DNA of 64,000 bases from Deuterostichococcus epilithicus (taxonomy: Eukaryota; Chlorophyta; Trebouxiophyceae; Prasiolales; Stichococcaceae). Below are positions 1 through 61,300 of this stretch, piece after piece. Within the stretch, counting starts at the first letter, position 1. The number at the start of each line of letters is the position of its first letter. The stretch lies in the NCBI GenBank assembly GCA_033439295.1, contig JAVTLE010000011.1:434082-498081 (forward strand), given 5' to 3'. Below the pieces are notes generated by a model, which was not told the DNA's origin, did not search any database, and worked only from the letters and a program-made list of their open reading frames with translations. The position numbers and the translations under genes were made by a program.

Positions 1-3000
1 AGGGGCCAGCGCGGCAGTGACTGCGGGGGGCACGGGGAGCGCACCACCGGCTCCGTTGTCGGTGCACCGACGTTTGATGCTCCAGCAGGGCGCGGATCGG
101 GTGTGCACACAACCTGCAGGCGGGCAGCGCGCTGACGGCGGGCCCCTCGGAGCTGCAGCGCTGGCTGCACGCGCTGGACATGCTGGATGCGGCGCTGTCG
201 CTGCTGGCGGAGGGTGACGCGGCGCGCTACGCAGGGCTGTCGGTGCGGCTGCTGCAGTCGGACGGCGAGGAGCCGGAGGGCTGGTCGGTGCCGGCGGGCA
301 GCCCCCACGGCCCTGCCAGCCAGCAGGTAGGCGGACGGGTGGAAGTAGGAAGTCGACTTGTGCTCGTGCGGGACCGGGACTGGGTGCCGTCTCAGGCAGG
401 TGCAGGGTGTGTCGCCCACCCCGCTGGTTCCTTGTCTGCACACTCCGCTGCACCACAGTCAGTGTGCACAGCCCTGCGCATGGGAGCAGCAAGTCACTCA
501 TCGCCGCCGGGCCGCAGCAGCACACGCCCAGCAGGGCTGGCCTCTCGCCGCGATGGGCCAGCTCGCCATGCGGGTAGCTGCTGCCTGTGCTGACTGCCGA
601 TCGGGTTCCTCACAGCAAATTTCTACTGTCTATTCTTGCTGCAGACGCACTGTTGTCGAGCAGCGGCCGCCTGCACCTCGTGGCAGACGAGGCGGCATAT
701 GGCAAACTGTCGGACTGTCAGCTGGGTGGAGAGGTCCATCTGTGTGGAGTCAATAATTCCCGAGCTCGACTCGACGTGCCGATGGGCACAGAAGCAACGT
801 GAAGGCTGTTTCACCATGCGCCACAGACACACGTGTCGAGCAGCGGCTGCCTGCACATCGTGGCGGACGAGCGGCACATGCTGGAGGCGATCGACTCGCT
901 GGACCTGCAGCGCGCACGGCTGCTGGCCCGCCTGTCTGCCTTCTGGAGCCAGCAGGCCCAGTGCGAGCCTCTGCCTACCAGACCCTGAACCCGCTCCCCT
1001 CCTCCCTGTGGGTAGATGCTGCTGCTGTCCGTCTGCCGTCCAGCAACGATCATGCTGCTTTATGTGAACTTTTGCAAACAAATGGATAAGCTTGACGTGT
1101 CCGGCGGCGTTGCCCGCTGCGTGAGGCAGTGCCGCTGCAGAGTTTGCAGAGTTGACGCCTGCGCCACACACCCCGCAGGTCACTGGTTCCGGCGGTGCGC
1201 CGCCTGCTGGGCGTGGCGGCGGTGTGGCATGACTCGGGCGCAGATCTGGCCTCGCAGCGCTTTGTGCTGTGGGCCAGCCGGCTGCTGGAAGCAGAGGAGG
1301 CGGCGGGCGCCTACCAGCACGTGCTCCAAGCGGCGGCGGAGCCCAGCGGCGGCGCAGATGCGAATGGCAGCAGCAGCGGCGACGCCATGGCGGGCGCCCG
1401 AGGCAGCGAAAACGCCGGCAGCAGCACGAGCGCTGCCGCTCGTACCAGCGGCGGCGGCGGGGCGCCGCTGCCGCTGTCGGTGCTGGTGCACTGCGATGCG
1501 GACGGGCCGCCCGTCGAGCTGCTCGCCTCCCGTCGCCTGCTGCAGGTGGGACATCGCTGCGTGTTGGGGGTTGGTTGCTGTCCTTGTGATCGTTCGACGT
1601 AGCTGCCGGCCCCTGCTGAAGGTGACTCCGCACAGGAGGCCGCCTGCTGCCTGACGCTGTCAGCGCTGCATATGTGCTGCCGGACCCGCCTGGCATTCGT
1701 GTTGCTAAGGGAAAACGCGACATCCTGGCAGCAGACCTCGGCAGACCAAAATACCTTGCCTTGGTCCTAATCAACCATTTCACCGCAACACTGCAGCAGT
1801 GACGCGCATCCCGACTGTCCAGCAGTCGGCGGCCGGTCGCCATGGGGACAAAATCCCAGCAGGGCACAGCTGCGCCATTCGCAAAGCCCAAACCCTGCTG
1901 CAGGCCCAACATCCCTGTTCTGAAGGTCTACTAGGAAGGCCGTCACCGGCGCCCCCGCTCGTGCGCAGGTTCGGCACGACTGCCCGCCGGAGGCGCTGCT
2001 GGCGGTGCTGACGCGGGCGGTGCGGCAGGACTCCCTCGCAGCGGCCGACTCGCAGGCCCGAGCGCAGTCCGAGGTGAGCAGCGGCCCTGGAGCCTAAAGC
2101 TAAAAATTATTAAAACCTGGAATCTACTGCAGGGCCACAAGCGGGCACAAACCATGCCGTCAGGCCACCAAATCGTGGGGAGCAGGCTGTAGCAGGCTGG
2201 CCCAAGGCACTTCCTCAAAGCAACGCAATTTGCGTGCCGACCTGTTGCTAGAATATTTCAAGTCCCCGACGGGTTGGCCATACGCCGGCGGCGCGTCTGC
2301 AGCCTCGGAGTTGCAACGGCGTGCTGAAACTACTGCCGCGCACAAGCCTGTGCATCCGTGCCTCTTACGGTTGGCGCGTGTGAGACCATTTTGGGTGCGT
2401 CCGCAGGAGGCGGCACTGCTGGAGGCGGCGCGGGCGGCGCTGGGTGCCCGACGCCTTGTGCGCGTGTGCACGCACTGCAGCCAGGTGCGACACCCGGCCT
2501 GACACTGTCGTAACGCCTGACGCCACTGCTGACGCCTCACCTCTGATGCACCGGCTGCGTGCCCTGCCTCGACATGCCGGCGGGTCGCCGTCTCGAACAG
2601 CGCGGTCCCATCAAATACCATAGCGGCGCGGTGCAGCAACAACGCGCAATCCCTGCCGGCACACGACAGCCGGTTTGCTGCGGCGCCTCTGCAATGTTGA
2701 ACCACAACTGAGTTCTGATGTTTCATCTGCCCCCGCTGCTGCTGCTAGGTAAATCGGCCAGATTGCCTGCACATTGCACCGCTCCTCAGCCCACGCTTAA
2801 CGCCTTTCCCGGTGCTGCTGCGTCAGGACGATGTGATGGCGGCGCTACACCGGCTGATCGACAATGCGCTCGAGATTTGCGGCGCGGTCGACCTCACAGG
2901 TGCCGCCCGCCTCAAACCCCTCCCTGTAAGTAAGTTTTGCCGTGTAGTAGCCGCTGGCTTCTGCACACAGACCTGCTGTGCCTGCACTGGTGGCCATCCA

Positions 3001-6730: not shown

Positions 6731-9700
6731 TCAGTCGATAGCTGCCCTCCCCTTCAGGTCCGCCTCCAAAGCGTCCAGGTCTTCATCGTCGTCGTCATCG
6801 TCGAACAGCTCCCGGTCCTCTGCCGAAACCTGGTCTGCTGTGGCGCCGCCGCCGCCGCTCGATGGCCCTGCACGGCAAGCGCAATCCAGTCTCGGCGGTC
6901 TCCTTGCAACCGGCTCGTCCGAAGCAGGGAATGCGAACGGCAACTGGCGCATTTAACATGAAGCATTGATGCACACCAATGGCAAGGGAGCGTCAGAATA
7001 CGAATACGTTCTGTCAGAGCCGAGGCTCCAGAAGGGGAATCCAAAGTATCGTCACCCGCTCACATGCGCAGAGCTACATGTCACACCAAATGTCGCGACC
7101 AGACTCCGCAGCGACGTTGCCCCCAGCAGCTCGCAGTCAGCAACCGCAGGCACACCCAGACGAAGCGGGCCGGCAGCCGTGACAGTTCGCGAACACAGCC
7201 CCTCACCTGCGGCGCCGTTCTGCCCGGCCGTGGGCGCCGCCGCCGCCGCCGCCGCGCCGCCCTGCGGGGCGCGCGCCGCCGCATTGGCTGCCTCGGCGCG
7301 GGCTCGCTCCGCTGCGGCGGCGGCCTCGTCGTCATTCTCGCGCGTGTAGTGGTCCGACGCCCCCATGTCGTCCTCCGCCACGAAGCCCTCCTGCGGTGTT
7401 CAACAGGTGCGCAGCTTGCACAATGGTTACAGCTTGTGCCAAGTCCGAATCTGCTCTCCGGTTCTGTAACTTGGCCTTTCTGGATTGTGTACCTATTGTA
7501 ATATGTACATGAGATGCGCAGCGTCCCCTGTGCGGCGCGGCGCACGGACTCGCGCAGCAGCCGGACGGACACCCCCTTTGCAAAAGAGCCGTGCGGGTAT
7601 GTGCAAGGAGCCTGGGCCGGCGGATGGGCGTCCCGGAAGGCCTCCCTCCCCGCTACCCCCGCAGCACTGTGACACGGGCTGGCGTCTCACCACCTCGGCA
7701 AAGATCTCACGGCCGGTGAGGACGTTCTGGAGAACCTCCAGCCCAGCTGCCCTCACAGCATTGCAGCACGGACTGGCGTCTCTCTCACCTCGGCAAAGAT
7801 CTCGCGGCCGGTGAGGACGCCCTTGCGGCGGCGGGCCTCCGCCAGCGCGTCCACCTTCTTCCGCTCCTGGGCCGCTTTCCGGTCCGCCCAGCCTTTGAAG
7901 GACTGCGGAGGAAGGAAGCAGGAAGCAGCCACTCAGCGAGGAGCTTTTCCATGGTTTGAGGGCTCGGGCCTGACATACGCTGCCCGCCGTGCGACAGTCC
8001 GCCACGCCCCTGCTGTCGCCTGCATCTGCACCTTATCTTTTGAATGTGCTGAGCTGTGCCCCACCTGCCTCATTGATGCCCATATGTGCCCATGTTTGGG
8101 CACGCTCAAGAATGACTGAACAGCACGGCATGAGGTTCATTTTGCCACGCGACGTCCTACTGTCTGCCCGGGTTTCCAAGGGGGTTTCGGGTATATCCTC
8201 CCTGCCGTCGGACCTGCCGCGTGATCGTTCGAAACCGAAACTACGTAATCACTTTCACGCTTGCATATTCTATGCTTTCACTCCATCATCGGGCCAACAT
8301 GCACCTGGGACATTCCTGATGGACGCGCATGCCTCGCCGCCCGACCAGCAGGCGAGCCGCCGTTCAAAAAGTGCACAGTGTGCTTCTGATTGCCCGAACG
8401 AAAAGACAAAGCCTGGCCGGTCCGACCAGCCAGCCGTCCGCTGCAACCCCCCGCAACGGGTTTGTATGGCTGAAAAGCGCATGCCCGTGTGATTTGCACG
8501 GCTGCAGCGGCCTTTTCTCCCAGCGAAGCTGTTCGAACTGGATGGCCTTGACTGAACCGCGCAACTGCCTTTGGCGGCCTGCCTCCTGAACGGTGCTTTT
8601 GGAGATTGCCCTCAACCTCTTTGCGTGCAGCAACATCGTGCGCGGACGCTGACACCGGCCACCTGGTGGTCTGAAGGTCCAGCGCCACCAGGTGGCCGGT
8701 GCCAGCGTCCGCGCACATGGTGCTGCATGCAGGAGGGGCCCAAAGCGATCTGCAGAAGCACTGTTCACGAGAGGCTAGCTGCCAGATCAGTGGCGCACTT
8801 CAGGTGTATGCACCCAGTTCGGGCAGCTTTCGTCGGCAGAGCCGGTCGCTGCAGTCGTGCTGGCTCATGGGCTCGCGGTTCTGATTCAACCGCTTTGCGC
8901 GGGGCTGCGGCGGACGGCTGGCCGGCAAGGCTTCGTCCTTCGGGCAGTCAGAAGCAAAATGCGCGCACTCTGGTGAATGGCGGCTCACCTGCTGGTTGGG
9001 CGGCAAGCAACTCGCGTCCTCGTGAAACATCCCAGCTTCACGCCGGTCTGACGAATGGAGTGAAGCAGGATTATAAAGGCGCAACATCAAAGCGCCTGTT
9101 TTGGCCTGTAGCTGCTCTGCTTTCTGGGCTCGTGGCCAGGAAGACACACGACATGCACTCCACAAGCCGTGTCATATGACAGCCTGAGAGATGCCCCCTA
9201 GCGCCTAGGGGCCCCAGCCAGCCTGTTCATTCCTAGGTGTCGGGTTCGTTGATCGCCATGCCCCCGCTTCCCCATTGGTGGACATGCGCGTGTCCACCCT
9301 GGCGCGCAGCGCTCGGCATGTCGACAATTTTTACTTCACGGACGGAGTTAAGGGATTGCCGTCCTGTGAGACATCAGACTGATCCTGCTGGCCCACACGC
9401 AGGCAGTTCCCGAGCATCGAGGCCGAAAGCACTTGGCGCCGCATGCAGCCGCCCGACGGCCTCGGTGACGGGCGTGCGCGCATCAGCCTCGGCCCGCCGC
9501 GCCTCGAACCTCTCTTTCCCAGCGCTCGGCCCGGCCCCCCCGACCCCGAGCAGCACATTCTGCGCAGAGTTTAGAGTGTAGGGTTTAGGAGCTGTCATCT
9601 CAGAGTCGCTCGCCTCCTCGGTGATGGGCGTGCGCGCGTCGACTTTGGCACGCTCCGCCTCGATCTCCTCCTCGATGGACGGCGTGTTTGCCTTTTCCGC

Positions 9701-21802: not shown

Positions 21803-24800
21803 TCAGGGCGCCACTGCGGCGGCAGCTGCGCCGCTGTCACCGCCGCCACTGGCGGCAGCTGCGCCGCCGTTCTCTGCAGCCGGCTGCCCCGACGCCTCCG
21901 CAATGGCTGCCAGCGTGGCGGAGCGGTGCTCCGAGGTGGCGGTGCTGCCCTTTGTCGCCTGCCGCACCTGTGCGGTGTTTGGCATTTTCGATCGAGAACA
22001 ATGGGCATTATCGTGGGCAACATCGCGATGCTGTGCCAGCCTGACAGGCGTTGCGTGGCACATGACGTCATGTAGTGGCGGGGATGCAGTGGCCTTGCCT
22101 GGGGGCACAGCAGTAATCTGGCAGGCGGGTAAGGCAGAGCAGCAGTAATCTGGCAGGCGGGTTAGGCAGAGCAGAGCCGACGACAGCAGTGCGCCGCGCA
22201 GACACCAGGGCGCGTTCTCGGGGACGGTCTCACCGCCATGGTCGCATATGCAGACGGCGGCAGCTGGAAGCGCAGCTGCAGCGCCAGCGACTGGCCGGCC
22301 TCCACAGGTGCCGCAGCCGATGCGGCGGCGGCGGCGGCGGCGGCGGCAGCCGCCTCCGGGGCTTTGTTGGAAGGCGCACCGTCCCCATCGTAGAACTTTT
22401 CGGACGCCGCGACGACGCTGACGCCTGGCGCCCCTGTGCAATTGCAGCTAGGACATGAATCTTGCCTCGAAGCAGCTTGTCCGATTGCTTGTGCGCATGC
22501 GGCAAGCAAGCGGGTAGCACATCCAGTCCCTAGCACATTCAGTTTCTCGACAAAAAAACTGCGCAGCTGCAGCAAGCGCCCCGCCCAGACCCTCAGCAGC
22601 TGCCGCGCCCGCCGCACCGAGCCTCTACAACATTTCCGCCATCAGCCCCCCGCTCCGCCAACATCCCCAAGCTGCCGGGCTGGACATCCTGGCGCAGAAG
22701 CGAGTGGCGCGCACTCCTTACCCCAAGGGGTATGTGTTACATTCCATGCCTTACCCGATGCGCCGACACCGGACAGCTCCGCGTCGGGCGCCGTGTAGCG
22801 CAGCAGCCGCCACGCCAGCTGCCGCGGCCGCTGCACCAGGCGCCGGTAGTCGCCGGCCAGGCCCGTCACCGAGAAGCCGCGGGTGCCGTGCGGCGAGGCT
22901 TCCAGCGACACGCCGTCGAGCGCCGCCAGCTCGGAGTACACCTGCGGGCTTCGAACTCCGAGGTTCATGGCCAGAAGCGCCGCAATCAACGTGTTGCAGG
23001 GGGGCGTGAAGTCCACCTGCGGGGGTCGCACCCCGAGGACTCATGATGGTCAGAAGTGTTGCGATGAAAGCCTTTGCAGAGGGGTCGCTGTGCTCCAATC
23101 CTTCTGTACAGAGATCCGAGGGACCCCCCGGGATGCCACGGAGAGATGTGGCGAAACACGGGCAGTGCGGTGCACAGCTCAATTGCCGGCCGCGGGCGCG
23201 ATCCCGGGGCGGCAGCGCTGCCGAAGCCACGCCGCGACGCATCCTCCAGACGCCAAACCGTTCTTGGCGCCTTCACACGTGCGCCGCCGCCACACGTGCG
23301 CCGCTGTCCACTTTGTTTTCTTGCCTTGTTATCATTATTATTATTGTTATCATTAATATTATTGTCATGCACCTGCGCGGTGTCGTGCTCGGGGTAGCGC
23401 ACGCGCGCGCCCGGCAGCGGCAGCACCACGTCCTCGATGTCGAAGACGCCCGTCGCCGCCTCCTCTGCCGTGACGGTGTGCACAGCCGCCAGCCGCCCTG
23501 CGGCGCGCATGCCGCCCGCTTCCGGCCCCTCGGCATCGAGAGGCGCACCCGCCTCGCCGCCGGCGCCTGTGGTCAGGGATCGCGAGATGACACCGGTGTG
23601 AAACGTTTCGTGCTTTATCTGTTTCTGTACCTCAGCCTCATCGGCGTCCCCGTCGCCGCCGCTGGCGTCTGCGGCGGCAGGGTTCACAGAATATCAGGTT
23701 GTCAATCAGTGTCGTATGTCTCGGGGCCTCCGGCAACCGGCACCCCTTCCTCCGGTGTTGCTGCCACCGCCGGCGTCTGCGGCAGGACTGTCGGAACGTC
23801 ACTCCACAACACACGTCACTGTTGTCCTTGCATGATGCACCTCTCCGCCGCGGCACGCATGCGGCTGGCTGCGAGCCCTCGGCGAGCGGTATGACCTCAT
23901 TCGCGAGTTTTTGTTTGAGCATGCGTCTGAAATGGGCGACGACATGGTGCAAGTGTGCCAGATATGAGGCGGCGCACCCGTTGCGCCGGCGGCGGCAGCA
24001 GGAAGCACCAGGTCGCCTGCAATGACCGTCGCCGCGCCATGGTGCTCTATGCGGTGGCTGGCCGCGGCGTTCCACAGGTAGCTCTGTGAGATGCAACGTC
24101 AAACATCAGCTAATGACGCGAATTGCTCGTACAGACTGCACGTCCACAATGCCGACTCCCCTATGCGACCCTCCCCGGCAAGCACGTTTGAGCCAAGCAG
24201 CAAGCAGAGCGAAACAACAACCCGACAATTATCAGGTGGCCTGCAAAGCAGCCGCATAGGGTGCTGCTGTTAGTCAATGCTGTCAGTCAAAGAGTCGGGA
24301 ACCATCGAGCTGGTATACATCTACTCCGGGGCACACATCTGCTCCAGGGCACATGCAACCTTGGGCCACACACCCACCTGGTAGGCGTGCACGTACATCA
24401 TGCGCAGGGAGCGCGGGATGCACTCCAGGGCCGTCAGCCAGCAGTTTGGCCCGTGCTGCTGCAGGCCGTTCAGTATGGCCCGCTCCGCCGTCAGGAAGCG
24501 TGGCAGCCCCTCCAGCGCGGCACCTATGTTGCCTGCAGAGCAAGGAACGCGGGTCCGAATTCATGGCTGTCGAACAAGTTCCGAGGCGCCGATCGAAGGA
24601 GGGATAGACACCAATGTAGCGCATGTGGCGCAAAAATGGCACGGAAGCATCCCCGACCATGGCGTGCTAATCTGGCAGGCGTGCAGCTGCCAGTGCAGTG
24701 CTCCGCCGCTGTTGCAGTTGCGTGCACCCCCGTCACGACGTTCAAACCACCTCACACGCTGCCAGCGAGCAGCTGTGGCAGTGTGGGGAGGAGAACAGCG

Positions 24801-27800
24801 GTGGGAGCATTCGTGCTGGCAGCATTCGTCTAGAGGCAGATGCGTCACTCGAGTAAGACCACAAGCGATAGTTTCATGATGTTCGAGAGCCGGTCGCACC
24901 TCGCTCCAGGAAGGCGGCGCGCGCGGCGGCGATGTCGGGCCGGTCGTCCCGCTGGCCAGCCAGGATGAGGCGCGCCGCCGCCTCCCATTTGCCGTTCAGC
25001 AGCAGCGCGCCCACCCTGGGGCAGCAGCAAAGTGCACGGCGGCGGCGGCGTGAGCTTGAAGCTTGACAGGGGGCAGCTGGAGGAGAGCTTCTGTATACAG
25101 CATCTGCGCCCGCAGCGAAGGTTTGCGGACTGTTGCATGACAGTACTCAGAGCCCAAGGATGCCCTGCCCTGCCCTGCCATACGCACCGGCAAGACTGCC
25201 GCACACACCTGTGGGTGGCCGAAGCGCCGCTGCCAAAGCGCTGCAGCCCAAAGTAGTTCACGAAACCGTGCTGCGCCAGACCCTCCACCGCAGCCACCAC
25301 CTGCACGTCAAGGTTCTCCTACAGTTGCTGCCATGCGCCGGATCATACCACCACGGCCTTTGCTTGCCAAACACAAGGACGACGTGCGGAGTATTGGCGA
25401 AGCAGGCAGCTCAGTACAGTTGCGGCTGCAGGCAAGCCGCCTTTCATGCCGAGTGCATGGGCACCGGGGAATGGCCAGGCAGAAACATGTCTTGCCGTTG
25501 CTAATAAGGTTTTGTTGCTGGCATTGCCGGCTTTGATAGAAATTGCAAGAACGGCAACACTTATGAAATCGCTGTGACCGGGTTGGGCTGCGTGCGCATC
25601 ATCGCCGTCGCTACGCCGCGCAGCACTACATTGTGCTGCTTGCTGTGAAGGACGCATGATAAGGTGAGACACCACATCTTGTGTCGGACATCCCAAGACA
25701 CAGGCTTCTAGGTCCAAGATAGCTCGTGAACCACCTGCATCTCGTCGGCGCCCACCACGCCGCGCAGGACCAGGTCGAACTGGTTGCCGCCTGCAGCGCC
25801 CAGCCCCAGCGGTTCGGCCACGTACGAAAAGTTGCCCAGCTGTATGCCCCTGCGGCGCATGGGACATTTCCCTGTTGGCCTTGCCATGTCAAACGGAGAT
25901 AGCGTAGCACTTCTCAAGGCTGTGTGGATGATTGGCTGCTGTTGGCCGGGCAGCTCCTCAGTTGGTGTGCACTCTTCAGTCAGTGTGCAACACAGCGAGG
26001 GCAGGCGACGCCCCCGCTCGCAGCGACCGAAGGGTTAATGGCGCCCGGGAGACTGCGGCAATGGAGGCGCCAGCCGCACCGCATGCTGAGGGCCGAACTG
26101 CATGCTGAACAGCCATTTGCACCCACACTGCACCCCCGACAGAGCGCCATTGGCTCGAGACACGCATGTCCGTTGGTCATTCGTGCTGCAGGAGCGCGCC
26201 TGAGGCTGCGATTGCACCCCCCCCCCCCCCGGCGCCTCTCCCCCTGGGCCAGGCGTGCGTCCGCCGCCTCTGAAGGCAGCTGCCGGGAGAGACCTTCCAG
26301 CTTCCGCACACTGGTCGAGCATGCACACGCCTGAGCAGAGATGCGCGCCTGAAGCTGCGGTTAAAACCGGCGAGGCTGCCGTCTGCCACCTTGGAGGCTG
26401 TCGCCGAGTGCGGACTTACACAACTTCTGCACGCTTGAGCAGGAACGCTCACCTGAGGCTGCGGTTGAGGCCGGCGAGGCGGGCGTCCGCCACCTTGAAG
26501 GCTGTCGCCGCCTGCTCGGTGACCGCGCGCTTATCCTTCGTGCCCGCGAAACCGAACACGCCGGGGGAGCAGTGCAGCATGCGCGCCAGCACTGACAGCG
26601 CCGCCTGCGGGGGGCTGACGAGCAGGTTCAGGTGTGCTGTTGTGTGTGTCCATGCAGAGCCATGTTCAAAAGCACTTTCGCGGCGGCACCGCCTCTTTTG
26701 CACCCGGCAATTGTCAGGGATCGACTCGGTTCTGGGTCGTGCCTGAGAACAGGGAGCATGCTTGATGAAGTCTTACTGCAACCTTTGCCGATCCAGCTGA
26801 CCCAGCGGTGCTGGCGCGGCGAGACGCGGCCCTGCGCGGGGAGCTCTGCAACAGGCTGCTCCGGGTTGCGGCAGGTGTCCCTGCCACCGGGCAGGGGGCG
26901 CTGGCTCCAGCAGCTCCGCAGGTTCCCAAGGGCGAGGCGAGCTCATCACCAAGCCGATCACTCCAGCTTGAGGGGTCTGGGCCATTAGGAATCCAGGCTC
27001 GCCTGAACCCTGAACCCACCTGAGTGTCCATGTTCTCCTTGCGCATCACGAACCGCACGTACCGCGCGTTGCCGCCCGGCCACTGCTCGCGGCCGCCACC
27101 GCGGCCGCCGCCGCCGCCGCGGCCGGCTCCGCGCTTGCGCTTGCCCGCCGCCGCCGTGACCTGGATCACGCCCTCGCTGGGCGCCTGCAGCCGAAGGGGC
27201 ATGCGAGCGAGGCGGGCGTCAGGGCACACACGCGTGAGACATGGTGCTCTTGTCTGCACCTGCAGAGTGCTGGACCACGGCTGCAGTTCCGGGTCTGTGT
27301 TGCACGATTGGGCAAGTAGCCTGTCAAGAACCGCACAGCCGGGGTCACGGCCGGATCCTTCCCAACAGAGCTCAGCGAGCAGCAGTAGCTCGCGAGAGCA
27401 CACCGCAAATCAGACAGGTGGCAGGCGCCCACCACCTGCCGGCATGCAGGGTGCCAGCTGGAAGGCCACCAACAAGCGGTTGGATCAAAGCAGCCTGTTT
27501 CAAGGGGACCAGCACTGTACAGAGTGGAGGTTCGAGCACTCACAGTGTTGTTTCCCTCCCTGGCGGCGCTGGGCGCCGTCTCTGTGCGCATCGGCGGCAG
27601 CCGCGCCTCGCTTTTGAAGAACTCGTGCACCCCCGACCGCTTCTGCTTCTCCGGCATGGGCACCAGCCNCACGTGCCGCGGCGGCCGCGGCGCCGCGCGC
27701 CTTCCGCCGCCGCTGGCCGTGCCCCCGCCGCCGCCCGCGGCTGCAGCCTCTGGCCCCGCGGCTTCCGCCCCCGCAGGCTCTGCAGCCGCGCCGGGCTCGG

Positions 27801-46400: not shown

Positions 46401-49400
46401 ACGGGCCCAGAATCCCTGAAACAGTCGCCGCGCAACACAGGGCCAGCGGGCGGAGGCATGCTTCGTCAACAGCGTGTACCTGGACAACTCCAGCCTGGAG
46501 CTGTACCATGGGCTGCTGGACAAGAAGCCCGGCGCCACCACCATGCGCATCAGGTGCGTGCAGCGGCGCACACGCCCGCAGGGCGGACCGCAGGGCGGCC
46601 CGCAGGGCGGGGCGCTGCGCGGAGACGAGACGCGTGGGCGCGGCGGGCGGAGATTTCGCTTCGATGCAGCCAGCTGTGCCGCTGTCTCCCGATCTGCCGA
46701 GGCATGCCGTGGGCAGCTAAGGGGATCACAAGATGCATTTCCCTTGAGTCAACTTTCACGCCCGCCGCGGTCGATCCAGAGTGGTAGCCGATCCATGCCG
46801 CGCAGGTGGTTTGGCACGGAGCCATCAGAGACGGTGCTGCTGGAGCGGCGCAGCCACGGCAGCGGCAACGACGCGGACACGACGCCGCTGCTGCTGCCGG
46901 AACGCTTTGTGGCGCCCTTCCTGACGGGCACGCTGTCGGAGAAGGACTTTGTGCGCAACGTGCGCCGCATCCAGGTGAGCCGTGTGTCACTCAGCTCACA
47001 TACAGCGTGAGCTGAGTGAACAGGCAGTGGAGCGAACTGGTGTTGGAAAGAGGAAAATCAAGGAAGGGGACACATTTTCGACCGTCGTGCTGTCGGAGCA
47101 GCACTTTTGTGTGCAGAGCGCGCCGCAGGTAGGTGAGTCGGACGGGAATGAAGGAAGGCAAGGAAGAGAGGTTGGAGGCACTGGAGGAGCGTGTCTGGGT
47201 GCCAGCAAGCCCCAGTGCCTGCCCTGCAGCGTTCAGGACTCAGCTGAGGCTGTTGGTGGGAGGGCTGCAGATAGTAACAGCCAGTAGAAGGGCAGGGAGG
47301 GATGGTACTTGTGTGGGCATGACTCTGATGTCCTGCTCCCCCTGGTGCAGGAGGTGAACGGGACAGCCGATGAGGGGGAGGTCCGGCGGTCCGCGCAGCT
47401 GTTCGGCGACCTCACGCGCGTGGTGTCCGCCAAGCAGCTGGCGCCCATGCTGCGCACGCAGGTGCAGCTGCGGCAAACTGCTCTCTGTTCCGGGGGCTTT
47501 ATGGCAGGGACCCTGTTGCGGCAGGTCACTGGTCGTGTGTCATACTTCCTGGCATGCGTCAACAACTGCGCCTGCAACCTAGCAGACGTGCAAACAGACC
47601 TTCGAGGGACCAGTCCAGCATGCTGCGGACCAGCCTGGGCACCATGGCGGCCCCCACCTCTTCAAGTGCGACCGACAGCTGAGGCGACACCTCTGCTCCC
47701 CTGCGGCAGGCCATGCGCTCGGCATACGGCGACTCGGCAGAGGGCGGCAGCTCGGGCGTGCGCCTCACGCTGGACACCAACGTCGTCATGCTGAAGGAGA
47801 ACCCCTACAGCGCGATGGTCTCCGACAGGTGCGCCTGCACCGGCAGCTCTATGTCTGGGTTTGCACTGACTCACTGTCTGTGCTTGCGGCTGTGCATGCC
47901 AGTGGCGCAGGCCAGGCAGTTCGCTGCGGCTGTGCACTGTGATGGTCCAGCGCGCCACCCGTGTGCAAGCATCTGCGCGCCATGCTTTCACCCGCCAGGC
48001 TCGCAGGCCGCCACGCACTGACCAAAGGTGGCGCAGCCGGGCTTGGAACGCAAAGCGGCTCAGTCACATCTCGAAGCCAGGATCATCTCCATCATGAGCT
48101 TGTGGCGTGCCTGGTTTCTTGGACACAAGGCTAGGCTTGATGAGGGTGCCGAGTACCTGATGCGTGCCTGCCGTGTGTCTCCCAGGTGGGCGCGGGACCT
48201 GAGCCAGCAGGTGTCGCGCACGGAGGTTACCCGCTTCCCGCACGCGGTGCTGGACGTGCAGCTGGACCAGGCCGCGCTGCACTCGCCCCCCAAGTGGCTG
48301 CAGGTGGGGCAGGGGAGCATATCGAGCTGCTAATGCGCGGCAGCAACCGCAGGCATCCGGTTGCCCAATGAAGCCTCGTGAGGCTGGGGCCGGCTGCCCG
48401 AGAGGCTGAACCCCCTCTCTCACCGAGCCGTTTCCGCCTGCATCGGCCACGCGGTGGTGGCACAGAACCAGGGCTGCAGAACCAGGGCTGCTTGATGTGC
48501 GGTCACCACGCACGCCTGATGCGCCTATTTGAACGGCCGGGCACCCGGAGATCACTCGATCTGCCACGGTGTTCGGCAGCCGGACGCGGCCACCTGCTAT
48601 CTGCTGCCTCAAGCGTGCGGCGCAACCCTGTACACTGCAGCGCAACATGAATTCCTCACACCCGTGTCGTTGAACATATATTTGCAGGACCTGTACAGCA
48701 GCGGCTACCTTACGGAGCTGCATGCCTTCAGCAAGATGTTGCACGGTGTCGCCACCCTGCTGCCCGACGCGCTCCAGGTGCCGCGTTTTCCCTCGGCAAA
48801 AAGCGGCACCTCCCGCTCCCGCAGCTGCCTGAGTCGCTGCCTGTTTCGCCCCCATGTGCCCGCGCTGCCTCGTTCTGAGGGCCGGCGCCGCCGCTGGTGG
48901 TGCCGCTCGCAGGGAACCGTCGCACCTGTTCTATGTCGCCCTGCTGGGGAGGCTTAGCAGTGGATTGCGGAGCAAGGAGTCTGCTCGCTGGCCCTAAATC
49001 CTGCCGCCCTGCCGTGCAGGCGGTGCCCTACTGGGTGGACGACGAATCGGTGCGCGCATCGATGGCCGCCTCCGGTCCCAGCCCGCCCCGCTCCATCGAG
49101 GGGTGCGCCTTCCTTCCTGCTTCCTACATCTGGCATTCCCAGGCCAAACCCCCTTCCGCCTGCATGTGCCGAGTTTGTCAGCTCGCGAGGCAGGCTTCCC
49201 CGGCAGCGCCGTCGCCACAGCGGCGCACGCTGCCAGCCGCACATGCTTCTCTGCAGGCGTGTTCCAAGCAACACAGCTTCTGAAGCCTGCCTCAGTGCTC
49301 CAACGCCTCACCGCTGCCGCTAGCGCCTGCAGGACGATACAGCCCGCCACGGCGGCGCACCGGGCGGGGCTGCCGCGCGCTGCGCCAAAGCTGGAGGAGC

Positions 49401-51344
49401 TCAGCCACCCACTGCTGGGCGATGCGCCCACCCTGCAGCTGCTGCCCGACCGCACGGACATCGCCGGTGCGCATCCGCAGATGGGGCGGAGCCGCGGCAG
49501 CTGCTTGCTCTGACTGATTAAGCAGTCGAATGGCAGGCTTGTGGAACTGCAGGCGTGGTCGCAGGAGGCTGAGCGATGTTGTAGCGTAGCAAGCAGCTGA
49601 TGTGTCGTGGTCATTGTAAACAGCCCGCCGTGACAGCGCAGCCGGCTTTATATGCCTGGCATGCGTGCTGCCTGCAGCCTGATGCCGCTGCTCATGGCTG
49701 GAGAGCATTTCGGAAAATGTGGTTGCACAGCTGGCGCGCGCAGCTCCCGCAGGATCCACCTGGGCAGTCGCAGCAGCAGCCGAAGGGCTGCTGGGTGGCT
49801 GAGCCGCGGCTTCAGTCGGAGCTCAACAAGCGTCCACCAGGAGCTCGTGCATTCAAGCTGCAGGTTCCACCAGCGGGCAGCCGGCCGAGTCGGCTGCGGC
49901 GCCGCTGGCCTGGCGGCTCCTGAACCGCGACCTCAGGCGAGGGTCACCGCCCAGTCACTCACTGGCACGTCTGCCGTGCTGCAGGCTTCACCGCCGGGCA
50001 GCCGTCCGAGGAGCCCCGCGGCCTGCTGGCCTGGTGGTTCCTCAACCGCGAGCGGGAGCACAAGCTGGACGCCCTGGACCTGCCGCTCCTCGGGGAGGCC
50101 GCGCGGCCCAAGGGGCCGCCGCCGAAGAACGTCTTTGCGCTGGAGAGGACCTACCTGGCCTGGGTGCACATGGCGATCACCGTTGGCGCGATTGCGGCCG
50201 CCATGGTGGGCGTCGCCGGCTCCAAGGACGCCCCCAGCACTAAGGTGGGATTGGATCCAGAGTGTCGAGAGACGGAGAGGCGAGTGGCCATTCCAGAATC
50301 GCAGGCGCAGCACGCTGCAGCGTGCATCATCGGACACATGGTGCACCTCGAGTGTCTAGTGCATGTACGGATTCCCAATTAGCTCTCACGAGAGTCCCTG
50401 CATCCAGGGGCGCTGCTTCTCAGAGCCGCAGAGCGTGGCGGGCATCGCTGCGGCTTTGCAGACCATTGATGCCCAGGTCTGCAGCGGCACACGTGTGCAA
50501 CATGTAGGGTGCAGGGTCATCGGAAAGCACAGCTCACTTGTCGTTGCTGCCTGCAGGGCATGGCGCGGGCGACGGATGTGGCGGCCATAACCATGCTGCT
50601 TCGCGCCATGCCTGCCATGCAAACACTGATCCAGACCTATGTCGCGCCTCCTCGCAGGGCGTGGTGTGCTCGACGGATGTCGTGGCGGTAATGATGCTGG
50701 CCATGGCAGCGGCTCCATGATGCCATGTTGCTGACGCCGATCGCCTTGGCTGCACTGCGCAGGGCCTGGCGCGCTCAACGGATGTGGTGGCCATGATCAT
50801 GCTGGTCATGGCGGCGGCCATCGCGGGCTACGCGCTGCTGCTGTACCTGCAGCGGGAGCGGCAGCTTCAGCACCACACCGACGAGGTGCGCCTTTTCGTT
50901 GATGATGTTGGCAGCCATTCAGACTGCTGCGGGCTCGACAAGCGGTGCCGGAGCCCTTGGGCGTGGTCCGGCACAATGTGGCCCGACGCTGCGGGCTCTT
51001 CCCGTGAACTGTCCAGCTGGGGTGTTGGCTGTTGCAGGGGTGACTACAAAACCCCCCAGCTGCAGCCCGCGTCTCATTGTGACAACGAGGAGTGGTGCCC
51101 TGCCGCCACTCCTGAAGTGTTGCTGCTCCTTTGACGCGTGGTCACAGCTGCGTTTCCGACAGCGTGTGATCCCAGTCGCGGCACCTGGACCTAGAGCACA
51201 CTCTTCACTCGATGCTCGGCCGCCTGTGCACAGGAGACCTTCAACATCGACGACCGGGGCACGCGGGTCATTGTGGGCGTCATCACGGCGTCGCTGTCTG
51301 CCATCTTCATCATCTCCCTCATCGACTTCTTCATGTGCCTGTGA
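43421..51344 (+). CDS. VTC4: SPX-VTC-DUF202 protein, VTC4-like polyphosphate polymerase subunit
   Basis: VTC proteins make polyphosphate at acidocalcisome/vacuole membranes and sense inositol pyrophosphates through the SPX domain. Twenty exons join in phase to 737 aa (yeast Vtc4 is 721): 43421-43430, 43616-43681, 43836-43993, 44613-44729, 44985-45020, 45148-45174, 45296-45394, 45668-45858, 46088-46166, 46441-46553, 46806-46974, 47351-47461, 47710-47828, 48186-48303, 48688-48777, 49020-49102, 49333-49466, 49985-50244, 50763-50885, 51234-51344. SPX (about 1-170): MKFGKYLASQQQ, FLDYKGLKDRI, YVNLNYLGFHKAVKKHDKQL. VTC core: YWVRTVDVSAVKHHIL, VNSVYLDNSSLELYHGLL, MRIRWFG, LERRSH, LTLDTNVVMLKE, FPHAVLDVQL. 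DUF202 with three helices: PKNVFALERTYLAWVHMAIT, STDVVAMIMLVMAAAIAGY, GVITASLSAIFIISLIDFF. The first exon has only 10 coding bases. Exon 7 ends at a GC donor or, six bases earlier, at a weak GT. Confidence 0.9.
46572..46612. repeat. Three-unit CCGCAGGGCGG repeat (VTC intron 10)
   Basis: Three near-identical 11-13 bp units just downstream of the exon 10 donor, each containing a CAGGGC acceptor-like core. Confidence 0.75.
48466..48494. repeat. Two-unit 14-bp repeat (VTC intron 14)
   Basis: AGAACCAGGGCTGC is present twice in direct succession. Confidence 0.9.
49857..50058 (+). repeat. Tandem copy of VTC exon 18 5' part
   Basis: About 78 bp from the acceptor into exon 18 (49980-50058) has an upstream copy at 49859-49936, offset 120-121 bp. 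Both contain a GCAG acceptor, then a CCGGGCAGCC-like core and a CTCCTGAACCGCGA / TTCCTCAACCGCGA end. The upstream copy is frame-damaged and not needed for the protein. Confidence 0.8.
50551..50830 (+). repeat. Three tandem copies of VTC exon 19 (TM2) start
   Basis: Copies at about 50551-50615, 50651-50720 and 50757-50825 each carry a CAG acceptor and code GMARATDVAAITMLL, GVVCSTDVVAVMMLAMAAAP and GLARSTDVVAMIMLVMAAAI. Only the third extends into the full transmembrane exon with a donor. Offsets are about 101 and 106 bp. Confidence 0.85.
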
Positions 51345-55300: not shown

Positions 55301-58300
55301 CTAAACCTGCATGGGAAACGAACAGCAGCCTTCTAGCTGCGCACGCCCATTGCTGCGCACGCTTATTGCAGAAGTGCACGGGGCCAACAGCCGGCGTGTG
55401 AGGCTCAGTTACTGCGCATCATCAGCCTGACTTCTGTTCGATGAGAGTTTTCAAGAGGTTTCGCCTCGAGTTGTTTGGCTTGTGTCACTGCAGGCGTCAA
55501 ATAGCAACGCAGCGAAGTGGGCCGCACTCGGCGAGCCCCAACCCACCGCCCAGTACCTGTGGTCAACCCAGGTTTCCATCACTGGTACATCATCCGATGC
55601 TGGACAAGGCATGAGTATAGTAGTCGTTCTCAATCCTGATGCAATGAGCATGGCGCATGCGGCGATCAGCTTGTGTGCCCCAAGTGTTTGTGTTGCTCCA
55701 CGCAAACAGTCGCCACCGTGTCGCTACGCAGCAATCGGGACCTCATCGCTAGGGTGTGGCAGTGTCAGACTGTTCATGTAAAGCAGCAGTGTGAGCTCGC
55801 CAGGTGCAGTGACGTCGACCCTTTGCCGCCGGCCCAGCGATTTGCCGCCGCCTCAGCGCACGCTATGCCATTCGCAGGCTACATCATGCTGGCGGGCCTG
55901 CTCATCGGCATCCCCTTCGCCATCAAGCTGCCCGGCCTCATCCACGTGCGCATTCGCACGGACGCTCCCGCTGCTGACGCCAGCATGACGTCTCAGTGCT
56001 GCAGCAATCGCAGCCCCCGCGCTTGTGTGTCGCAGCCCCCGCCCTTGTTTGCATTCCACCTCTTGACTTGAGCACCGCATGCAGCCCGCCCGCCTGCTGG
56101 AGGCTCTGCGGCCCCTGTCAGGTGCCTGTCGCTCTGCCACATAGTCCCTCTGCCCGGTCTCCGCACGAGCCCTTTCCACAGGCCTTTGCTGGAGGGCCTT
56201 TCAGCTCCTGCATGCAGGGCCGCATCCTGCGCCGTCGGGCCGCCAGGAAGGCGCGCCTCGAGAAGGAGGGCCGCACGGCGCAGCTGCAAGCGTTGCTCGA
56301 GGCCCGCAGACGCCCGCGGCGGGGGCCACTGCGCTGGCTGGCGGCGCGGACGCGCACCTTCGAGCTGTTCCTGTGGACCCACCTGGCCATGGTCGGCCTT
56401 GTGTATGTCGCGGCCATCCTGCACCCGCAGCCTGGGCTGCCGGGCAAACAGCATGCGAACGGCCGTGGGACCACCTGGGTGCGCCCTTTTTTTATGTATT
56501 TCATCCATGTCTTGAGGAATGTATGTCGGGCGCATGCGCTTGTCCTTGTCTGGCTGTTTTCCGGCCGTCACGTGCTTGTCGTGCTAGTGCCGGCCGCTCT
56601 CTCCTTGCCAAACTGGGGACCACCAGCAGCCTTGCCCGAGCGGAAGGTTGTGTTGCTCGAGGGGTCTGTTCTCGGGAACACCAAGCAGCCTGTCAGACTG
56701 GACTCGATGCTGTTCGACCCGCAGATCTGGGCGGCGGTGGCGCGGTGCCGCTACTGCTGGTGGAATTACCAGGGCGAGTGCCCAAGCCGAGCGCTTCGCA
56801 CCACACCTGCTCATAAGGTTGTGTATCGAAGCTTGGCTCCTCTCAACAATTTGAAACGAGGCGCAGATTTGGGTGGCGGTGCCGCTGCTGGTCTACCTGG
56901 GCGAGTACCTGAGCCAGGCGTTGTGGCCCTGCGCTCAACCCGGATTTTAAACGTCGTCCTGGAGGAGGGGACAGAAAAGGTGCGCTGCCTAGCCTGATTT
57001 GAACTAAGTTCTGATCCATCACCCCGCCCGCATCCCGGAGGTCACCCTGAAGCTCTACAGGGCAACGAAGATGCATGCTTCCCCGATGGCATCTGGGCGC
57101 TTCTGCATAAGTAGTTTTTGGCTCTGCAGCCCGTAGTGAATGGGGTTGTGCGATCGCTGCTGGGAGGTTTTTTTGGCTTCCGTTGCCACTGCTGTGAGGC
57201 GAAAGTGGGTGTCAAAGAGAACATGTTTGAAAGCCTAAATTTTTAAGTCCCGGTCATCTACTCGGTGACAGGTCGTCTGCCTGCGGCTGGCCAAGCCAAC
57301 GTCCTTCCATTACAGGTGCCGCCGAACTCGTTGCTACTACCACTAGTTCGTCAACGTGAGAATATCCATGTTGTCAAAAGACGCTGAGCAAAGAATATAG
57401 CACGACATTGTGAATCGGTTCCCACCTCGCCGCTGCATGCCGGCCCTACTATGTGCAAGAGCATTTGCCACAGCGGAAACACCTATTGAGGGAATGTGAT
57501 GGCCGTCAGCTCCCAGGAAGCAGAGGTCTCAGTGCACCGCTGCCGGTGCACTTGGCAGTGGGCAGCTAATGCCCCGCTCACAAGGCGTGCGGGCAATGCT
57601 GACACACGCCCGCCAACCGTGGATGCAGCCCGGGCCAGTACCTGTTCCTCAAGGTGCCGGCGGTGGCGCGCGCCGAGTGGCACCCGTTCAGCCTCATCTC
57701 CGCACCCGGGGACCCCTACCTGGCCGTCAACATCCGCGTTGCGGGTGACTGGACCGGCGCGCTGTGGAAAGCCATGCAGGCCAACATCGAGGTGCGGGGT
57801 CGTCACAGCAGCTGCTTGCAACTCTGCTGCCGACATAATGTTGTCCCCACAAACTCGAGATGCGCCTCGCACACGGCGGCTGTGGATACCGCTGCAGGCG
57901 TGCGCGTGGGCTGTCTGATATAAGCTGATATAAGCGGGCAGAGCCGAAGTGCTGCAAATACGCGCCAAACCCTCCTACGTGCTCGCACAGGCGCACCAAA
58001 AGTCAGCAGCAGCGACGGCAGGCGTCACCACCAGCGGCCACGCTGCGATGCCCACGGCCCTTGGCGGAATAATCACAGAAGAGCTGTGTCCCGAGGTATG
58101 AGCGACTGCTGCCTTGCAGAGTAACGAAGCATAATGTTCCAAGCCAGTTTTCCACTTGCCGGTAGCAATGGCCGCGCTGTGCTTACCTGGCATCATCATG
58201 CCTCAGCCTCCCTTCTCAGTGGTATGCGGGGCATATCGGACACTGTATCGCCAACAGCACCTGCCGCAAAAATAGGGCGACAGCAATCTGTGTGCTGCGA

Positions 58301-61300
58301 ACTAAATCGTCTGATGGTCTGTCTCCTCAGGGCGGGGCGTTGGCGCCGGCACTGCCGCCAAGGTCCCGGCGGCGGCGCGCCGTCGACAAGCTGCTGCGGC
58401 GGTCGCCTGGCCCGACCAAGCACCAGGTTCGGCGGACTATGGGCAGAGCGCAGCAGGGAATATGTGTGATGCTGACGGCGTATTCCATTGGTGATATGGC
58501 AATTCTGGGCTGCCGGGCGGCGGGGGTTCGAAATAGGTGTGGGGGCTTGCCCCTCCCCCACTTCAGGACCACTGCCACAGCCGGCACAGCTGTGGCGCTG
58601 TGCAAATGCAAGTGAAGTCGAGGGTCTGGAGCTGTGCACGCGCATGACCAACAGTGGTGGTGATGGATGCAGGTGTGCATGCCGCTGCCCAGCTTCCCGA
58701 GTGTGCTGCTGGACGGGCCGTACAGCACGCCAGCTGCAAACTGGCAGGTTCGTACGCCAAGCATCCGATGGAAGCAGCTTGATTTGCTAGCTGCGCTGCT
58801 GAGGGACGCCTCAACGCCTCTGCACTCGAGGCGCCTGCGGCGCATCAGTGCCATGCACCTACAATTGGTGCCGCCATGTCAGAGACAACGCTGCCGTTCT
58901 GAGAGGGTGCAGCGGGCACCCGATGCTCCCTCGAATGTTCCTGGCGCAAACTCCTGGGCGAAGTATGCCCTGCCTCTGGCGAGACATAGTGCTCGCTCAC
59001 TTTCTCCTGACCGAACATCAATGTGGTGCCGTCTGTCCACCATCAAGTTCCGACCTTCCCACGGCCGCTAGGCACGATAACAAGGCAGCGGTGCTGGTGG
59101 GCGGCAGCATGGGTGTGATTCCGCTCGCATGAGACGCTTCTACTGTTTGTCTATGACATCCTGAAACCCTGTAACAAGTCTCCAAATTCGCTATGCCCCG
59201 TAGGACTATGAGACGGTGGTGCTGGTGGGCGGCGGCATCGGCGTCACTCCCTGGGCCTCCGTCCTGGCGGACCTGGTCAACCGCATTGAAGCCACCCGCT
59301 GCGTCAACTGCAACTACGTGCGCACACTGCTGTATCATGAGTTACCTGTCAGAGCGGGACTGCTGACGCGCATGTGTCCCTGCGCTTGGCGCTGTTTTCC
59401 TTCACAAGTTTGGACGCCAGCGATGCAGCAGCCATCATCCTGTGCATGGGAAGTCTTTGCAAAGGCGTACCCGTGGGCCGTGGGGATATCATGCATATCA
59501 TCATTTCGCATGTGCAAAGTCAGCTTGCCCAGCACTCATTGCCAGCATGCGTAACAGCCACATCGTGTGGATGAACGACTTTCAGCCACAATCTCTGAAC
59601 AATGCTGCTCCTTGGCTCGCAGCTGGACTCCAACAGGCTGCACCGTCATGTCGCTGGCGACGGCGCCGGCCTCATGACCCGCAAAGTCTACTTCTGTGAG
59701 TGGAATCCCTCCCGTGCATGCTGACCTGTCCCCTGTGCAGCCGCAATTCACCTGGAATCAGTTCAAGCCTAGACGTTGCATACCCTGCCTGCTTTTCTCA
59801 TGGGAGCAGCGATGCGTATCGTCGATATGTGCTTTGATCAAAGCAGATGTTGCTACCAGAACCGACCTGCTCACGCTGCGCAAACTGGATAGTGCGCGAT
59901 TGCCGGATGCCCACGTACTTGCGATCCACGCTGGAGGCCATCTGCCGCGACGACTCCCTGGGCCTCGTGGAGGCGCACATACACCTGACATGTCCCAGCG
60001 CTGCGGCGCTGCACACGGACCCGCGCTACGTACTTGCGCGGGTGCGCAAGCGCTTACATGTTCACATCTGACTGGAATTGTCCCGGGTCCGTCTGCATTC
60101 AGGCGTTGCACTTGCACTGCACTCTTATGTTTGCATCGTGAGTTGTTTCCGGAGCAAACCCAGCTTTCTCTGGAGGGTAGCGGCTGCTGCTTCGCATGCA
60201 CCTGCAGTTGTGGCGTGCAGGGTGGTTCGGACACTCAGATCAGCTGGCGAGGGTCCTGTCTGACAAACATGCTCGCAGCGCCACCACCTGGTCGCACGGC
60301 GGGCTGCATGCTTGAAGCGAAACCTTCTTTCCGCAAAACTAATGGGCTCTGTCTTCGCCTGTGCAGCTGGGGCAAGAGGCCCTGTGGCAGGCTGAGCAGA
60401 CGGATGTGGTAACAGGGTTGCGCTCGCGCTTCGTGACCGAGTATGGGCGTCCCGACTTCCACGGCGTCATGCGCGACCTGGCAGTGCAGCGCAGGGCGCC
60501 GGGACGGCGCGCCAAGATTGGCGTCTTCGTGTGCGTGCTCTCCCTGTGTGGCGCCTTGGGAAGGTCTCACAGGCGTGTGCATCGGGCGGTCGCGTTCCCT
60601 TGAAGTATGTAGGTCTCGAGTAGACTGTTTCTGGCGTAGTCTGGACGACCTACCACTTTACTTTCGTCAAGGCACAATCGCAAACTGCACAGGCGCCTGC
60701 CCGCAAGCTGCCAGGAGGTTACTGCGGCGCTGGCAGACGTTCTAAACTCCACAGCGGTTGCAATCAGTCACATGTGTGCTTGCAGTGAGGCGGGTTGCTG
60801 ACACCCCCCGCATGCCACCACATGCAGGCCCTGGCAGGCGGCATCCGAGATGCCTGCGCCGCAGCTGAGCCGTCGCTGCTGCAGCGCCGCGGCGCAGACG
60901 CTCCGGATCCGCCCACCCACAAAGCCGCCGCAGCCGCCGCACCGTCGCCCACCCCGGAGCCGTCGCTGCAAAGGCCACCATGGGGTGCCTCGCGGGCGAT
61001 TGCAGCTTGGCCCGGCAGCGACAGAAAGAAGCAGGAGCCAGAGGGTCTGCTGTTCGACATGCCGGAGCGCAGCGACACTGTGCCTGCAGATATCGAGCTC
61101 ACCGCCGCCAACTTTGGAACCGGCACCATGGAGCTGAGCGCCACCGGCTTCGGCATGGATGTCGAGGCGGCCGCGGCCTGGAACGCCGTCGACGGCGAGG
61201 CGGTGCCGGCAGCTGTGCCTGCTGCGGTCGCGGAGCGCCGTGGCGGGCCGGCGGAGCTCGCCGCGGAGGCCGCGGCGAATGAGGTGGCGGAGCTGGCGGC

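Follow-up and report, generated by a model that had tools for sequence, protein, structure and literature searches.

Exon-like fragments recur inside introns of unrelated genes in a 64-kb stretch of a contig of the green alga Deuterostichococcus epilithicus (hereafter the window, that is, the whole stretch analysed), and we asked what produced them and whether they are functional. The DNA was compared with itself in a log-odds Smith-Waterman scan (75% identity model, offsets 20-2000, cut-off 22 nats), and direct matches with a trinucleotide entropy below 4.4 or an offset below 50 were dropped. The scan covered 364 kb, consisting of the window and a 300 kb sample of the same genome in 30 pieces; Markov-3 controls were built in 1-kb blocks with three seeds and modelled on the window and the first 200 kb of the sample (264 kb). 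A blastn scan (+5/-4) was abandoned as too permissive in GC-rich sequence, its long-range direct and inverted counts being similar. Gene models were predicted from the sequence alone by a self-trained HMM, which called several copies exons and left fused models (one joining PUS7 to the Myb gene and others, another joining VTC to NOX). The predicted median lengths were 101 bp for exons and 164 bp for introns (n = 1,020). Thirty-nine chlorophyll a/b-binding matches mark the genome as that of a photosynthetic eukaryote. Exon and copy roles were assigned by hand at several loci.

Local direct repeats were far in excess of chance. The window contained 24 direct matches of at least 22 nats, of which 9 were filtered out, leaving 15 direct matches against 1 inverted; three of the 15 lay at 18.2-20.1 kb, in predicted coding sequence rich in repeats. 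The first 200 kb of the sample held 27 direct and 2 inverted pairs (both inverted pairs in piece L016), and the entire 364 kb held 48 direct and 4 inverted local pairs. Per 264 kb, the Markov-3 controls gave 0, 1, and 0 direct and no inverted matches at 22 nats or more, and 9-21 direct matches at 18 nats or more. These counts agree with the first-pass annotation, which had listed ten loci with tandem copies of exon plus splice-site flank and had judged them to exceed chance and to involve unrelated genes. All ten were recovered, nine above 22 nats and one in NOX (56720/56862) marginally (19.0), and an eleventh locus, 46923/47080 in the VTC gene, was added. Outside the window, the sample pieces carried 33 direct pairs, and the comparison with shuffled-type controls that the annotation had called for yielded an excess over the 364 kb (controls, 264 kb). 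The pair density was higher in the window (15 in 64 kb) than in the sample (33 in 300 kb), the window having been chosen for its richness. The last ten pieces (L021-L030) held 6 pairs versus 27 in the first twenty, the latter being the only pieces covered by the Markov controls.

Table 1 Exon pieces and their tandem copies in the window (positions in the window; scores from the self-scan).
Feature	Range	Strand	Evidence and remarks
Gene 1, decayed copy of exon start and acceptor flank	626..701	+	38.7 nats, 77% identity, offset 180; upstream of exon taken as real
Gene 1, exon start taken as real	806..880	+	Self-scan; role by hand
DFRP1-like, exon end and donor, taken as real	7720..7823	-	Self-scan; role by hand, DFRP1 order
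DFRP1-like, decayed copy in downstream intron	7626..7728	-	56.8 nats; unit ~94 bp, nearly complete head-to-tail
DFRP1-like, exon taken as real	9616..9672	-	Self-scan
DFRP1-like, downstream copy	9460..9516	-	29.5 nats, offset 156; exon in gene finder (pair exon/exon)
PUS7, exon piece (PPCNTLIAALLAMNLG)	22935..23004	-	Self-scan
PUS7, decayed intronic copy	23010..23084	-	27.3 nats; unit 75 bp
PUS7, real exon end and donor (ATAFKVADARLAGLNRSL)	26430..26515	-	Self-scan; gapless alignment to human PUS7 5kkp
PUS7, decayed copy in downstream intron	26326..26411	-	54.2 nats; donor GT now GC
PUS7, third, weaker copy of exon end at 26430..26515	26247..26285	-	20.5 nats (below 22 cut-off); offset 226 from 26473
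Myb-like, exon and intron flanks, one duplication arm	33936..34342	-	Duplication offset 515-670 bp
Myb-like, decayed second arm, predicted intron	34451..34996	-	Self-scan
VTC gene, exon end and donor	46923..46982	+	28.8 nats, partner 47080
VTC gene, decayed copy in downstream intron	47080..47140	+	Self-scan; donor GT kept
VTC, decayed copy upstream of exon	49799..49930	+	38.6 nats; unit 121 bp, complete
VTC, second arm with exon start taken as real (FTAGQPSEEPRG)	49920..50051	+	Self-scan; role by hand
VTC gene, DUF202 part, three head-to-tail copies, last running into open exon	50539..50818	+	50539/50640, 50.9 nats
NOX, exon-start copy (marginal)	56715..56795	+	19.0 nats; below 22-nat cut-off, not significant alone
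NOX, exon taken as real	56857..56922	+	Self-scan; role by hand
NOX, decayed copy in upstream intron	59042..59122	+	24.2 nats
NOX, real NAD-binding exon start and acceptor flank	59173..59250	+	Self-scan; collinear with ferric reductase 8cak

The names TruD/PUS7, VTC, and NOX are backed by Pfam or PDB matches, and the real exons of PUS7 and NOX are supported by solved homologues. A Pfam search with gene 1 gave no match, and Pfam matches in the DFRP1-like gene were only of the Torus/CCCH type; its name, which we take from the first-pass annotation, is an assumption, and on the DFRP1 order 9460..9516 is presumably intronic, against the exon call of the gene finder. Myb-like is likewise a provisional label from that annotation; the pairs there are 33936/34451, 33947/34505 (43.6 nats), 34097/34768 (23.5), and 34247/34902 (25.9). 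The two three-copy arrays, each with copies similarly spaced, favour tandem duplication: the spacing is 104 and ~122 bp in PUS7 (26247-26515) and 101 and 105 bp in VTC (50539-50818); the DUF202 match in the VTC gene is stretched, with 118 residues for a 68-position model. The two VTC ranges at 49799 and 49920 overlap because their arms are head to tail.

Head-to-tail order was found in the clearer cases. The ratio of aligned length to offset was 0.83-1.73 at 7626, 22935, 26326, 49799, and 50539, and 0.10-0.90 in the remaining exon/intron pairs, where decay of the intron parts could account for the short aligned stretches. Insertion of mobile introner-like elements or of a repeat family would explain the recurrence across unrelated genes, and 7 of 41 repeat segments did have another match (24-123 bp) within the 364 kb. 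Against such an origin, which we regard as extremely improbable, the other 34 had none there, the loci 7626/7720 and 26326/26430 and the array 50539-50818 were single-copy genome-wide, and every copy in the alignments inspected stemmed from its own adjoining exon. One sequence family common to many genes, the mark of introners, was not found in these comparisons.

The decay of the copies is coding-neutral. In 20 exon/intron pairs, mismatches at codon positions 1, 2, and 3 numbered 76/382, 78/378, and 93/379 (0.199, 0.206, and 0.245), and 14 of the pairs contained at least one one-base gap. The splice dinucleotide was kept at 11 of 22 mapped predicted junctions and lost at the other 11 (three of the 22 are predicted GC donors and doubtful), compared with an estimated loss of about 8 under neutral decay at 20% per site. 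The offset was a multiple of three in 9 of 13 pairs with both copies called exonic, and in 7 of 22 exon/intron, mixed, or intron/intron pairs. Exon duplication can yield mutually exclusive exons, which resemble the present case in that an exon-like copy lies within the adjacent intron, and the first-pass annotation had suggested that the copies act as alternative exons or decoys. That selection keeps them for such a role is consistent with some copies (626, 7626, 9460, 49799) staying open and being predicted as exons, with the absence of an in-frame stop from the aligned stretch in 17 of 20 copies, and with the half of the splice dinucleotides that persist. The near-even decay over codon positions, the one-base gaps, a loss of dinucleotides no smaller than the neutral estimate, and offsets divisible by three in only 7 of 22 pairs argue against it: unlike mutually exclusive exons, the algal copies as a class decay without frame or splice-site constraint. 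The 20 pairs showed no reading-frame or amino-acid constraint in both copies, and at the 22 predicted junctions the copies, taken together, kept the dinucleotide no more often than neutral decay would leave it, although single copies may have usable sites. A role as alternative exons or decoys is therefore very unlikely.

Repeat-induced point mutation was rejected as a source of the mismatches, C>T and G>A not being dominant (C>T 37, G>A 37, T>C 42, A>G 25, C>G 34; 141 transitions, 106 transversions). Pooled identity was 78.3% in exon-derived parts (1139 sites) and 69.6% in intron-derived parts (352 sites), as expected if only one exon copy drifts. The lower value of the intron-derived parts argues for age, and the idea that the copies were born diverged through error-prone synthesis was discarded.

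The first-pass annotation had further proposed that the process lengthens introns or creates new ones. If a duplicated exon segment with AGGT became an intron, that intron would be as long as the unit. AG|GT-type junctions do lie inside several units, and 2 of 15 copy-bearing introns are near unit length (141-269 in piece L011, 129 vs 120; 26355-26452 in the window, 98 vs 104). The latter intron is cut by a copy called an exon. Intron gain via tandem duplication has reportedly been seen in potato. It has also been described in Drosophila (PMC2891723); there, as in the alga, exon sequence with AG|GY is tandemly duplicated beside introns, but the new intron has the size of the duplication, whereas in the alga the offset differs from the intron length and the unit was apparently added to an existing intron. 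Of the 15 copy-bearing introns, 12 exceed the offset in length. Donor and acceptor surroundings compared at an offset equal to the intron length had a mean identity of 0.262, within the 0.258-0.280 spanned by offsets of -40 to +40 (introns of at least 80 bp), and no intron of at least 60 bp gave a strong ungapped match at its length -3 to +3. Ten matches at -60 are presumably 60-bp introns aligned to their own sequence. Gains of great age may have faded past the reach of this test; with similarity flat at the intron length among the predicted introns of at least 80 bp, the proposed creation of new introns was not upheld and is contradicted for the copies that can still be recognised, and we consider it highly improbable as their source. 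Lengthening fared better and is a likely effect: copy-bearing introns (n = 15) had a median of 270 bp, which falls to 153 bp once the unit is taken off, and the full set of 1,020 introns had a median of 164 bp. The excess is weak alone (P = 0.08 versus length-weighted sampling).

We conclude that the copies are probably the remains of short tandem duplications (~75-190 bp), neutral and in head-to-tail order, that occurred in many genes. As exons and introns are short, a unit of this size would often span a splice junction; with random placement, 43% of units (42.8%) span exactly one junction and 21.7% are intron-only. Duplication across a junction would keep one junction intact beside the correct exon, and splicing would presumably use it, leaving the protein unchanged and the event neutral at birth. 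The spare exon piece would remain inside a now longer intron and decay without constraint. Because the true exon is under purifying selection, exon-derived halves should stay recognisable longer than intron-derived ones, and this difference makes the process appear aimed at exon-intron junctions.

The duplications may have arisen by break repair with fill-in or by slippage; slippage, template switching, and break repair are left together here because the junctions are too decayed. Patch-mediated break repair is known in rice. Small tandem duplications have been attributed to end joining with Pol alpha-primase/CST fill-in at staggered breaks, and among insertions <100 bp in human DNA such small duplications are described as the commonest form (Schimmel et al. 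2021, PMC8355091). The algal copies resemble these and the rice products in being short head-to-tail direct copies at unrelated sites with no common sequence, and differ from the end-joining duplications in their mode of 100-150 bp, their age, and junction microhomology that is no longer readable. A genome-wide account of such copies in an alga was not found in the open-licence literature, judged by titles and abstract starts.

Several observations weaken the neutral reading. Pairs occurred in 16 of 30 sample pieces, an uneven distribution, and several pairs whose intron part was short (3-8 sites) were more alike there than in the exon part. At offsets up to 300 there were 2 intron/intron and 15 exon/intron pairs; the former are scarcer than random placement and simulated detection predict (detection of intron-only units, 84% at a copy divergence of 0.15-0.20 and 55% at 0.20-0.25). 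The copies are 12-33% diverged with blurred duplication junctions, and none of 28 non-repeat pairs reached 90% identity, versus 22-24% in the simulated steady state, although steady birth should leave young copies; with three in-frame coding-type repeats (at least 93%) added, the estimated P is ~0.06. The active process of the first-pass annotation, if read as one specially active at present, thus found no support in these pairs. What is most unusual about the copies is the distribution of unit sizes, which among ~30 hand-listed events peaks near 100-150 bp and includes few of 200-500 bp; the density corrected for detection peaks at 100-125 bp and falls to ~2% of the peak at 200-300 bp, where simulated detection is 98%.

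This peak and the lack of young pairs would suit a distinct mutational process that favoured units near 100-150 bp, acted in a past pulse, and is now quiet; staggered-break fill-in or nucleosome-sized synthesis may be proposed for it. We regard this as a rather unlikely account: the ~30 events were listed by hand; only 2 of 13 pairs with offsets >300 entered the list, the others being exon/exon pairs, coding repeats, parts of a single duplication, or weak intron/intron pairs; selection may remove long units because introns become too long; and the age result is softened by the three coding-type repeats and by assumed simulation rates. It is doubtful, too, that a size-selective process of this lineage made ~100-150 bp tandem duplications genome-wide in such a pulse before slowing down, and was among the main sources by which introns lengthened. 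If it did, several thousand such duplications would survive by extrapolation, their exon-derived halves being dated fossils of the pulse.

Intron lengthening has mostly been tracked via transposons or small indels, as plain intron duplications fade fast. When a duplication carries exon sequence, the copy decays neutrally next to an exon that is conserved and serves as its reference, and the event can be recognised and dated much later, so that in a compact, intron-dense alga duplication events and their unit sizes can be counted directly. The copies also call for caution with gene finders, which may call decayed copies exons, as the HMM did here.

Direct and inverted repeats were sought with a purpose-written banded log-odds Smith-Waterman self-scan of the window and thirty 10-kb pieces sampled across the genome (364 kb in total; genome of 46.8 Mb in 21 contigs). 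Hits with a trinucleotide entropy below 4.4 bits or an offset (distance between copies) below 50 were removed, which took out 9 of the 24 window hits at or above 22 nats, the strict cut-off on the log-odds score. After filtering, 15 direct and 1 inverted pair were found in the window, 27 and 2 within the sample's first 200 kb, and 48 and 4 in all 364 kb, versus 0–1 pairs in each of three 264-kb controls (local third-order Markov sequences built for the window plus the first twenty pieces only). At 18 nats, the controls yielded 9–21 pairs versus 68 in the real DNA. The ten loci of the first-pass annotation, described there as decayed tandem copies of exon pieces with their splice-site flanks, were all recovered, nine of them with at least one pair at or above 22 nats. 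These results indicated that the duplication copies are real and exceed chance, both in the window and elsewhere in the genome. The pairs were unevenly spread: at least one occurred in 16 of the 30 pieces, and the first twenty pieces held 27 and the last ten 6. The density in the window (15 per 64 kb) was approximately twice that of the sample (33 per 300 kb) and is biased upward, the window having been selected as rich in pairs. A mobile family as the source of the copies was ruled out: three loci were single-copy in a genome search, and 34 of the 41 repeat segments had no other match in the 364 kb.

Exons were assigned with a small HMM gene finder of our own making, trained on the same DNA, which predicted 91 genes and 1,020 introns; median lengths were 164 bp for introns and 101 bp for exons. 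Pfam searches with part of the predictions identified TruD, VTC, SPX, DUF202, FAD- and NAD-binding, and GNAT domains and CCCH-type fingers; gene 1 gave no Pfam match. Human PUS7 aligned gap-free with one exon and then ran straight into the next conserved block, with a query that omitted a ten-residue predicted exon at that junction. A NOX exon was collinear with a ferric reductase, and the same query also matched NOX2. Therefore, the second copies of these two exons are intronic.

The 35 pairs at offsets of up to 300 comprised 15 exon/intron, 13 exon/exon, 5 mixed, and 2 intron/intron pairs; 13 more had larger offsets. Offsets were divisible by 3 in 9 of the 13 exon/exon pairs versus 7 of the 22 others, the latter being the chance expectation. 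The copies of two pairs called exon/exon at a multiple of 3 were reassigned to introns by inspection and by what we take to be the protein order. In simulated placement, 43% of random units of the observed sizes spanned exactly one junction, because exons and introns are short, and 22% were purely intronic. Where the reference copy is a constrained exon, one branch would drift; where both copies are intronic, two would. This single drifting branch accounts for most of why the duplications seem directed at exon-intron junctions, and the placement frequencies add to the effect; the shortage of intron/intron pairs is stronger than the two together fully cover.

Decay was analyzed in those 20 of the 49 examined pairs whose real exon was evident, from the gene models in 16 and by hand assignment in 4. 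Mismatches were near-even over codon positions 1, 2, and 3 (76/382, 78/378, and 93/379), one or more one-base gaps occurred in 14 pairs, and an in-frame stop in 3. The splice dinucleotide was kept at 11 of 22 mapped junctions, below the approximately 14 calculated for 20% decay per site. Thus, the copies decay like non-coding DNA, which argues against the proposal that they serve as decoy or alternative exons. Identity was 78.3% in the exon-derived part (1,139 sites) versus 69.6% in the intron-derived part (352 sites); in several pairs with only 3–8 intron sites, the intron part was the more alike.

Duplication of a segment containing AGGT, proposed as a source of new introns, predicts that donor and acceptor surroundings are alike when compared at an offset of one intron length. 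No such excess was observed: among introns of at least 80 bp, mean identity at that offset was 0.262, versus 0.258–0.280 at offsets within 40 bases, and no intron of at least 60 bp had a strong ungapped match at its length −3 to +3. The intron-gain model described by Lehmann et al. (PMC2891723) predicts a new intron equal to the duplication in size, unlike in this alga, where 12 of 15 copy-bearing introns exceeded the offset. Two were near it (129 vs 120 and 98 vs 104); the second of these reflects a PUS7 copy that the gene finder took as partly exonic. Intron lengthening agreed in direction, copy-bearing introns having a median of 270 bp (153 bp minus the unit) versus 164 bp for all introns; the excess over length-weighted sampling was only suggestive (P = 0.08). 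The duplications thus seem to have lengthened introns rather than made new ones.

With an assumed exon rate of 0.25 of neutral and one indel per 12 substitutions, a simulated steady state had 22–24% of detectable pairs at 90% identity or more. After leaving out seven exon/exon pairs with offsets at multiples of 3 (likely coding repeats), none of the 28 remaining pairs reached 90% (maximum 0.88; binomial chance approximately 0.001); including three coding-type pairs at 93% or more gave 3/31 (approximately 0.06). Hence, an active process is unsupported, and the duplication may have slowed. Extrapolation of 28 pairs per 364 kb gives roughly 3,600 genome-wide if the sample is representative, an estimate too high because the dense window inflates it. 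Unit density, corrected for detection and junction-spanning chance, peaked at 100–125 bp, was half at 125–150 bp, and was about 2% of the peak at 200–300 bp, despite 98% simulated detection; selection against very long introns could have sharpened this upper edge. The size analysis used 30 offsets listed by hand (about 30 informative events overall), omitting one 53-bp exon/exon pair. From the 13 pairs above 300, the list took only 381 and 558 (the latter outside the bins), and those left out included 473, which lies within an inverted repeat, and the intron/intron offsets 784 and 1183.

Break repair is known to produce short tandem duplications. Schimmel et al. (PMC8355091) describe them as the most common insertion form in human DNA for sizes below 100 bp and, from work in mouse and human cells, attribute them to fill-in by Pol alpha-primase where breaks are staggered. 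The algal copies are likewise short and may have arisen by a repair or slippage route, their junctions being too old to show which.

Positions of individual repeats and sequence features (window positions unless a sample piece is named)
Feature	Position	Observation
VTC pair	46923/47080	Self-scan; beyond the ten loci
NOX pair	56715/56857	Self-scan; 19.0 nats, marginal
Reassigned pairs	626/806; 9460/9616	Copies intronic
PUS7 exon; second copy	26430–26515; 26326	
NOX exon; second copy	from near 59204; 59042	
Inverted repeat, predicted DFRP1-like gene	8258–8667/8687–9081	Arms nearly 400 bp, ~71% alike; short loop; ~30 bases perfectly paired at tip; fold −533 kcal/mol, z −20.9 vs 20 shuffles
Second long inverted repeat, sample piece L016	2246–4034	Arms ~430–450 bp, 70% alike; direct repeat (offset 473 bp) nested between arms
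Young repeats, sample piece L019	1634–1778; 5903–6105	Identity 95% and 93%; offsets 72 and 114, each divisible by 3; predicted exons
VTC gene, DUF202 membrane part and upstream exons	49799–50818	Predicted as several short exons, some being decayed copies
N bases	3768, 3850, 3861, 3863–3864, 10783, 27669	Seven, single or paired

The young repeats are probably in-frame coding repeats. In the VTC gene, the DUF202 match was stretched to 118 residues versus a 68-position model, and gene finders will add false residues there. The inverted repeat in the DFRP1-like gene, for which a genome search returned only its own two arms, looks like a candidate long-hairpin or small-RNA precursor born by inverted duplication; the second inverted repeat did not match it. 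The genome gave 39 matches to chlorophyll a/b-binding proteins. The GC content of the window was 62.9%, and its N bases look more like ambiguous or masked positions than gaps.
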